Virus record (IMG/VR): IMGVR_UViG_3300044953_000085
Coordinates: 1 to 23,940 of that record
DNA: 23,940 nt
DNA from: a virus
Reading direction: 5' to 3' (one strand)
The notes beneath the pieces were generated by a model. The model had not been told where the DNA came from and ran no database searches. It saw nothing but the letters and a program-made list of their open reading frames with translations. Each line of letters begins with the position of its first letter. Positions within the stretch are counted from its first letter, which is position 1. This document shows positions 55-4,113 of this stretch, piece after piece. The translations under genes and the position numbers were made by a program.

Positions 55-471
55 ATGGCTAAAAACCCCGTAAAATTCTTGATTTATAAAGCGATGTGTG
101 AAGTAATAAAAGCCATGGAGATGCAAAAAATTAGCGATAACTGCCGCACATTCATCAGCGTTTTATGGCAGTTTGAAGGCCTTCACTACTACGTAAATGC
201 CCCAAACGAGGTGGCATTTCTGCGACTTGCGCATAGGCACTTGTTTAAGTGCAGGGCCGAAATCGAAGTATTTCACGATGATAGAGAAATCGAATTTTTG
301 CTGGCAAAACGCTATCTAATCCAGCAAAGCAAGTATGAATGGGAAGGCAACTCTTGCGAAGGCATAGCAAAGTATTTTGTTACAAAGCTAATAACAAAGT
401 ACGGCGACCGCACAATCAGAGTTGAAGTTTCGGAGGATGGGGAAAATTCTGCCATCGTTAAATACAGATGA
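55..471 (+). CDS. QueD/PTPS-fold (T-fold)-like protein lacking the catalytic Cys
   Basis: This 138-residue protein has no function I can name. Its motif order parallels the true QueD encoded at 2434-2868: EGLH with H44 (QueD AGHR), HRH at 60-62 (QueD HGH), IEF at 79-81 (QueD IDF), SCEGIA at 100-105 (QueD TAENMA), and a strand ending in SEDGEN at 126-131 (QueD YETENC). The three histidines that bind zinc in this fold (H44, H60, H62) are therefore present. The cysteine that precedes HGH in QueD and the later Asp-His pair are absent. It may be a T-fold ligand-binding or divergent enzyme rather than a carboxytetrahydropterin synthase. The ATG at 55 is the first start after an in-frame stop at 40-42; internal ATGs at 115 and 121 are possible. 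It overlaps dpdA by 4 bases, which suggests a role in the modification pathway. The gene is clear; the fold is inferred from motif order only. Confidence 0.72.
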   Translation: MAKNPVKFLIYKAMCEVIKAMEMQKISDNCRTFISVLWQFEGLHYYVNAPNEVAFLRLAHRHLFKCRAEIEVFHDDREIEFLLAKRYLIQQSKYEWEGNSCEGIAKYFVTKLITKYGDRTIRVEVSEDGENSAIVKYR

Positions 472-2450: not shown

Positions 2451-2868
2451 ACGGAGAATCCAATTTTGCGCCGGTCATCGCGTGTATGGGCATGAGTCGA
2501 AGTGCGCAACAATCCACGGCCATAACTATGTCGCTTATGTTCACGCCAGACCCAAACAGGGATTGGATCCAATTGGGAGGGTAATTGACTTTTCCGTACT
2601 GAAGGAATTAGTCGGGGGATGGATTGACAAGAATTGGGACCATAATTTTATCGTGTACGCAAATGACCTTGAAGTTTTAAAGATGGCCAGTACGATCTCA
2701 AGGAAGAAAGACCCGTATGTAATGGGCGTAAATCCTACAGCAGAGAACATGGCAAATTTTTTGCTTAAGGCAATTTGTCCTGAGCTGTTCAAGGACTATC
2801 CGATAGAGGTTTGGAAGGTCGTTCTTTATGAAACTGAAAACTGTTCCGCGGAGGCGACTCTTGTATAA
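2434..2868 (+). CDS. queD: 6-carboxy-5,6,7,8-tetrahydropterin synthase QueD
   Basis: This 144-residue protein converts dihydroneopterin triphosphate to 6-carboxytetrahydropterin, the second step of 7-deazaguanine synthesis. All expected active-site residues are visible: zinc ligands H15, H28 and H30 (AGHR and IHGH), catalytic C24, the Asp-His pair D69-H70 (WDH), E133 in YETENC, and the PTAEN motif at 101-105. Length is close to the 120-residue E. coli enzyme with a modest extension. The start is ATG 2434, with GGAG at 2425-2428; an in-frame ATG at 2386 would add 16 residues from inside the transporter gene and lacks a binding site. It overlaps the transporter by 17 bases and queE by 8. The complete active site implies a working enzyme. 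Confidence 0.93.
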   Translation: MSYSIERRIQFCAGHRVYGHESKCATIHGHNYVAYVHARPKQGLDPIGRVIDFSVLKELVGGWIDKNWDHNFIVYANDLEVLKMASTISRKKDPYVMGVNPTAENMANFLLKAICPELFKDYPIEVWKVVLYETENCSAEATLV

Positions 2869-3493
2869 GATCAAAGAAATTTTTGGGCCTACAATACAGG
2901 GCGAAGGCAGCCATGCCGGAGAGGCGGTAATGTTTATCCGCTTTACAGGATGCAACAAGTGGAGCGGCAGGGATACAGACAAACCAAAATCAATCTGCAA
3001 ATTTTGCGACACTGACTTCGTTGGTGGCGAGGTTATGAATCCAATTCAGATTGTGATGAAGCTGCAAGAATTATCAAAGAAGGTGACGACCGTTGTTCTT
3101 AGCGGTGGTGAGCCTATGCTGCAAGTTGATGAGCAGCTTCTGAAAAATCTTACGTTAATGGGCTACTCAGTACACCTTGAAACAAACGGCAGCTTGGCGA
3201 TGACGCCAGAGATGCGGAAACTCATTACTCATATTTCATGCTCACCAAAACAGGCGCCAGCAAAAACACTTTTAAAAGAAGTGGACGACCTTAAAATACT
3301 TTATCCATATATCAGCGACGAAATTACATTCGAAGCATTCGCTCAGTCGCAGATTAAATACAAGCAGGGATATGTTCAACCTGTTATGGATAATGATTAC
3401 AGTCTTAACCTGCACAAGGCAGTTAGAAAAGTTCTGTTAAATCCGTGGCTCAAACTAAGCATCCAGCAACATAAAATTATAGGTGTCCAATGA
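2861..3493 (+). CDS. queE: 7-carboxy-7-deazaguanine synthase QueE (radical SAM), TTG start
   Basis: This 210-residue radical-SAM enzyme rearranges 6-carboxytetrahydropterin to 7-carboxy-7-deazaguanine. The iron-sulfur cysteines are C31, C46 and C49, in the CX14CX2C spacing of the QueE subfamily with the inserted WSGRD segment, followed by DTDF. TIQGEG at 11-16 and the SAM-binding SGGEP at 81-85 are intact. The start is taken as TTG 2861: GGAGG at 2850-2854 lies 6 bases upstream, and the resulting N-terminus (YKIKEIFGPTIQGEG) matches family length. An in-frame ATG at 2828 would add 11 basic residues, overlap queD by 41 bases and lacks a binding site. folE follows with an ATGA overlap. Confidence 0.93.
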   Translation: MYKIKEIFGPTIQGEGSHAGEAVMFIRFTGCNKWSGRDTDKPKSICKFCDTDFVGGEVMNPIQIVMKLQELSKKVTTVVLSGGEPMLQVDEQLLKNLTLMGYSVHLETNGSLAMTPEMRKLITHISCSPKQAPAKTLLKEVDDLKILYPYISDEITFEAFAQSQIKYKQGYVQPVMDNDYSLNLHKAVRKVLLNPWLKLSIQQHKIIGVQ

Positions 3494-4113
3494 TTCCATC
3501 ATCGCCGTTAAGAAAAACAAGTTTGACCAATGGGCAAAAAATATCTCTTATTGAAAGCAGGTTCAAAGAAATAATGGAGATATTGGGGCTTGATTTGCAG
3601 GACGATAGCTTGCAAAAAACGCCATACAGAGTTGCAAAAATGTACGTGAATGAATTGTTCGAATCGCTTAAGCCAGAATCCTTCCCAACGATAACAACGC
3701 AAGAAAATAAATTCAACTACGATCAAATGCTCATAGAAGCTGGTATTGAAGTTAATTCTGTCTGCGAGCATCATTTTGTGCCAATCATTGGCAGGTGTCA
3801 CATTGCCTACATTCCAAAGGACAAGCTAATTGGCCTCTCGAAACTAAACAGAGTCGCCAAGTATTATGCAGGCAGGCCGCAGGTGCAGGAGAGGATGACG
3901 GAACAAATCGCCAGACATTTGTGTGATATACTAGGAACAAACGATGTTGCAGTGGTGATTGATGCTGCTCACATGTGCGTAAAAATGAGAGGAGTGAAGG
4001 ATGCGGATTGCATGACACGCACATCATCACTCGGAGGCAAGTTTAAGAATGATGAAAAATGCAGGGCTGAATTTATGGCAGCAATCCCAAGGATGAACAA
4101 TGGCCAAAGGTAA
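3490..4113 (+). CDS. folE: GTP cyclohydrolase I
   Basis: This 207-residue enzyme opens GTP to 7,8-dihydroneopterin triphosphate, the first committed step toward both folate and 7-deazaguanines; here it would feed QueD. The zinc site is visible as C92 and H95 in VCEHHF and C163 in AHMCVKMRG. TPYRVAKMY at 44-52 and the region GLSKLNRV at 115-122 with RPQVQERMT at 129-137 are standard family motifs. Length is near the 222-residue E. coli enzyme. The ATG overlaps the queE stop as ATGA, and the gene overlaps the putative small terminase by 14 bases, tying the modification cassette physically to the packaging genes. A phage copy would raise precursor flux above the host level. Confidence 0.95.
   Translation: MIPSSPLRKTSLTNGQKISLIESRFKEIMEILGLDLQDDSLQKTPYRVAKMYVNELFESLKPESFPTITTQENKFNYDQMLIEAGIEVNSVCEHHFVPIIGRCHIAYIPKDKLIGLSKLNRVAKYYAGRPQVQERMTEQIARHLCDILGTNDVAVVIDAAHMCVKMRGVKDADCMTRTSSLGGKFKNDEKCRAEFMAAIPRMNNGQR

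Follow-up and report, generated by a model that had tools for sequence, protein, structure and literature searches.

The 138-aa protein encoded at positions 55–471 on the plus strand of the window, a complete 23,940-base IMG/VR contig that is probably itself a fragment, has a QueD-like T-fold and, judged from its residue pattern, is a member of a distinct and highly conserved family, PHROG 17812, and no decayed QueD. Within the records tested, this family and QueC are mutually exclusive. We favour the reading, which we consider probable though well short of certain, that the protein is a zinc-site T-fold enzyme decarboxylating 7-carboxy-7-deazaguanine (CDG) to 7-deazaguanine for DpdA, the exact reaction being suggested by the genomic context.

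The cassette and the fold of its leading protein

The gene leads a single-strand cassette, all on the plus strand. It is followed by genes for a DpdA-like DNA-guanine transglycosylase of 267 aa (468–1271; PHROG 887, E 4e-14), a ParB-N-like protein of the kind commonly partnering dpdA (1268–1954; Pfam ParB_N, E 3.5e-6), a Vut_1 (YhhQ-type) transporter-like membrane protein whose exact start is uncertain (1953–2450; Pfam Vut_1, E 5.6e-7), a canonical QueD, or 6-carboxytetrahydropterin synthase (2434–2868; Pfam PTPS, E 1.5e-26), the radical SAM enzyme QueE, or 7-carboxy-7-deazaguanine synthase (2828–3493; PHROG 2076, E 1e-27), and FolE, or GTP cyclohydrolase I (3490–4113; Pfam GTP_cyclohydroI, E 7e-63); terminase- and portal-type packaging genes come next. 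As the first-pass annotation had stated, the downstream QueD is authentic, with the full catalytic and zinc set (Cys24, HGH, Asp69-His70 and the final Glu). The closest phage relative of the window DpdA is found in Faecalibacterium phage Roos, there too beside a gene of the PHROG 17812 family, and a ParB-like gene adjoins dpdA in Bipper and phi47:1 as well.

The nearest relative of the window, contig L169, has an identical cassette order, with open reading frames on the opposite strand upstream of it. Between the 55–471 product and its L169 counterpart we found 68.5% amino acid identity, with dN 0.24 and dS 1.5, and 55–471 is therefore a real coding gene under purifying selection. Its start codon is uncertain: the candidates are ATG55, TTG79 and ATG115, of which ATG55 is not conserved, a stop codon in L169 lying shortly before the site equivalent to window position 79.

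An AlphaFold2 model built on an alignment of 99 homologs reached a mean pLDDT of 94.7 and placed two strands, two helices and two strands in the order of a T-fold, the fold that the first-pass annotation had anticipated. Searched with Foldseek against the PDB, it ranked Escherichia coli QueD (4ntk) first (probability 1.00, TM 0.63/0.72), with QueF-like and dihydroneopterin aldolase structures far behind, the QueF-like ones at ranks 35–46. At the sequence level, residues 34–137 matched the profile of PHROG 17812 (E 6.9e-21), whose function is unknown, and the match to PTPS/QueD (PF01242) was weak, its 12.9 bits falling below the Pfam gathering cut-off of 22.4. A PDB sequence search did not recover QueD with either the protein or the profile as query, the window QueD was not matched in a pairwise BLASTP and an NCBIfam search was negative; the kinship with QueD was recovered by fold search and profile–profile comparison only. 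By fold, the family domain is also matched by two longer predicted viral proteins in BFVD, A0A6J5LEZ6 (459 aa, named alcohol dehydrogenase) and A0A8S5V119 (300 aa, named AAA domain), which suggests fusions.

When the family and phage QueD were aligned profile to profile (hhalign; probability 88, E 3e-6), H44, H60 and H62 paired one to one with the QueD zinc histidines, and all three are invariant in the 99 homologs. The catalytic Cys position of QueD, four residues ahead of HxH, is occupied by an equally invariant Leu, L56, and the segment bearing the Asp-His pair is missing, so that the first-pass annotation was right both on the retained ligands and on the absent residues. The motif order it had read as that of QueD stood in large part, with HxH, the I-D-F strand (DREIEF in the family), xxE (S-C-E paired with P-T-A-E) and the final Glu (E127) all aligning, but the first motif is E-G-x-H and not AxxH; similarly, the protein lacks the Cys of QueD but has an invariant Cys, C101, elsewhere. 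Fourteen positions are invariant in 99 of 99 homologs (H44, L56, H60, R61, H62, R77, E80, S100, C101, E102, R119, E127, D128 and E130), and in a more divergent 13-member set H44, H60, H62, R77, C101, E102 and E127 remain so, while D128 and E130 vary. Since the family has invariant residues of its own (R77, S100-C101-E102, E127), the earlier description of a degenerate QueD-like gene does not hold.

Among phage QueD proteins proper, we observed a subgroup that keeps the Cys and the Asp-His pair but in which AHR is replaced by Tyr/Phe-Arg-Gln and HGH by HGY (L001:3808-4284, L002:5478-5972, L164:6163-6630, L165:5512-6009, L166:3478-3969 and L004:4235-4702). Two of its three zinc histidines look lost, and its members mostly carry a GCE motif resembling the SCE of the family.

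Distribution and gene neighbourhood

The family is nearly confined to phages. Using tblastn, we found it in 27 phage records, mostly annotated as hypothetical protein and including ACP17, phiST, PA5oct and relatives, Phosso, X1, BUCT-ZZ01 and Roos, and in more than 590 viral contigs; a search of plasmids found none, and prokaryotes contributed only 12 loci in genomes of about 85,000 species. Four loci on contigs of Magnetospirillum genomes (L150, L151, L152 and L156) carry members, and in L150 genes for a DpdA-like protein, a glycosyltransferase and QueD stand alongside, perhaps as a prophage or a bacterial island.

To describe the neighbourhood, we scored genes within 10 kb in 51 dereplicated loci whose flanks extend for at least 7 kb in both directions. 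The first-pass annotation had staked its reading on homologs lying beside dpdA or 7-deazaguanine genes, and at least one of FolE, QueD, QueE and DpdA was present in all 51 loci (separately, FolE in 44, QueE in 34 and QueD in 27). A transglycosylase-like gene was found in 47, counting three DpdA-like types and a 270-aa protein, c12, whose profile match to the window DpdA (probability 69, E 4e-5) supports with moderate confidence its assignment as a DpdA-like transglycosylase. The DpdA types that accompany the family are mutually very distant. One of them, a 513-aa protein found in L013, L037, L100 and relatives, has no Pfam or PHROG match and carries a D-S-G-G-F-Q transglycosylase motif; from this motif and the gene context we regard it as a putative DpdA.

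The DpdA types differ in their surroundings. Of 36 full-flank loci whose DpdA is of the 513-aa or the ACP17 type, 35 have a gene for a GT-B type glycosyltransferase close to the family gene, against none of 11 c12-type loci (p = 7e-10), and the window class has none; loci bearing the gene include L001, L003, L004, L005, L007 and related ones. Nucleotide-sugar epimerase and phosphoribosyltransferase genes also recur near the family. The deazaguanine, or some other base, may thus be glycosylated in the 513-aa/ACP17-type class.

Among 48 family-positive records, QueE was present in 43 and a separate QueD in 33, isolated phages being among the latter. Several large family-positive records, those of Vibrio phage D479 (L012) and of contigs L040, L095 and L118, have QueE and usually FolE and no convincing QueD. 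The smallest arrangement was seen in Roos (L011, record positions 51706–53622), where ParB, the family gene and DpdA alone form a minimal cassette; its record gave no QueD or QueE match, and its CDG would therefore have to come from the host.

Exclusion of QueC and the proposed reaction

QueC turns CDG into preQ0 (PMC13329287), and the pathway of phages devoid of QueC therefore stops at CDG, the base that Hutinet et al. had proposed for the QueC-less phage Bipper (PMC6884629). None of the 48 family-positive records contained a strong QueC: no match was better than E 6e-9, and two records gave weak partial matches just reaching the cut-off. As a control, we drew viral contigs by a QueE DNA motif regardless of the family and required a true QueE. 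In this sample, whose records are fragments related to one another and whose counts are not independent events, QueC (E at or below 6e-12) was present in 17 of 25 contigs without the family and strong QueC in 0 of 7 with it (Fisher p = 0.0019); pooling in the family-selected records gave p = 5e-11, a descriptive value only, as those records were picked for the family. Seven of eight comparison phages have QueC and lack the family, and Bipper lacks both. QueF was likewise absent, no match rising above the Pfam cut-off, and at least one weak match falls inside an annotated FolE.

A phage with FolE, QueD, QueE, DpdA and the family protein but without QueC therefore needs a use for CDG. FolE, QueD and QueE make CDG, and we propose that the family protein would stand in for QueC as the exit from it. 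The zinc at H44, H60 and H62 would bind the 7-carboxylate, E102 and E127 would hold the guanine face as in other T-fold enzymes, and a conserved acid, for which H74, D76 and C101 are candidates, would protonate C7; CO2 would then leave, and the resulting 7-deazaguanine would be swapped for guanine in phage DNA by DpdA (468–1271). Such a decarboxylation fits a pocket that holds zinc as in QueD and keeps the guanine-anchoring glutamates but has lost the acid/base set of QueD, and the T-fold itself, the tight linkage to FolE, QueD, QueE and DpdA and the exclusion of QueC add to the support. The first-pass annotation had suggested a T-fold protein repurposed to bind a pterin or deazaguanine, or to act on the base after insertion; the context supports action on a deazaguanine, and the absence of QueC, which it did not mention, points to the free base CDG. 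The division of labour it had envisaged with an ordinary QueD is supported as well.

Three observations count against a CDG decarboxylase. Bipper lacks both QueC and the family, so the absence of QueC does not require the family; Roos has the family, DpdA and ParB but neither QueE nor QueD; and the commoner gene context includes a glycosyltransferase, which unsubstituted 7-deazaguanine does not obviously need. The last of these, with the recurrent epimerase and phosphoribosyltransferase genes, speaks for a rival reading in which the family turns CDG, either as the free base or after its insertion into DNA, into a different 7-substituted deazaguanine, such as one with a handle on which the neighbouring glycosyltransferase of some phages could act. 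We consider this unlikely: the window and c12 classes lack the glycosyltransferase yet have identical invariant residues, and the shared reaction should therefore not depend on glycosylation. It is rather more doubtful still that the family makes a novel 7-substituted deazaguanine, glycosylated in phages with the larger DpdA types, and no plain 7-deazaguanine; if true, this would mean a sugar-bearing guanine of a new class in DNA.

The shared fold and zinc site, and the large records in which QueE and FolE occur and QueD was not detected, could also indicate an alternative 6-carboxytetrahydropterin synthase with a different active site, but the catalytic Cys, Asp and His are all missing from the family, which mostly coexists with a separate QueD (33 of 48 records, and an intact one in the window), which makes this very improbable. 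Just as slight is the chance that the protein is no catalyst but a carrier, or a subunit of DpdA, which would bind the deazaguanine and deliver it to DpdA, for although the family gene immediately precedes the DpdA-like gene in the window, Roos and the c12 class, the invariant three-His site with R77, C101 and E102 suggests catalysis and the partner DpdA types are very distant from one another.

Relation to known enzymes and implications

Cui et al. (2023, NAR) are reported to have detected both dDG and dCDG in the DNA of phages and to have predicted an enzyme, DpdL, that decarboxylates CDG. The PHROG 17812 family is probably DpdL: the two share the predicted reaction, the phage setting and the base that would be explained, dDG, and the family occurs in a DpdL-type context, with FolE, QueD, QueE and DpdA and without QueC. 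Neither the residue pattern nor the QueC-exclusion test depends on that prediction. What is new is the residue pattern, the anti-association with QueC, the wide distribution and the glycosyltransferase tied to one DpdA type.

Compared with known enzymes, the family shares with QueD/PTPS (PF01242) the T-fold, the three zinc histidines and the final substrate-anchoring Glu, but it differs from these enzymes in missing both the catalytic Cys and the Asp-His pair, in its S-C-E motif and invariant Arg, and in coexisting with QueD. With QueC (PF06508) it would share the substrate CDG and the position in the pathway, whereas fold and chemistry are unrelated, QueC carrying out an ATP-dependent amidation and dehydration to preQ0. 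QueF and QueF-like enzymes (PF14489) likewise use a T-fold on a 7-deazaguanine base, as proposed for the family; unlike it, QueF acts on a nitrile through a thioimide Cys, and QueF-like structures match the family much more weakly than QueD does.

The family presents a T-fold protein in which the chemistry of QueD has been lost and the metal site kept, and this large family, which almost all of the phage records found list as a hypothetical protein, is a marker of 7-deazaguanine DNA. If the decarboxylase reading is true, it would provide a concrete gene and active-site residues for the exit from CDG in QueC-less phages and would predict which phages carry dDG instead of dPreQ0 or dG+.
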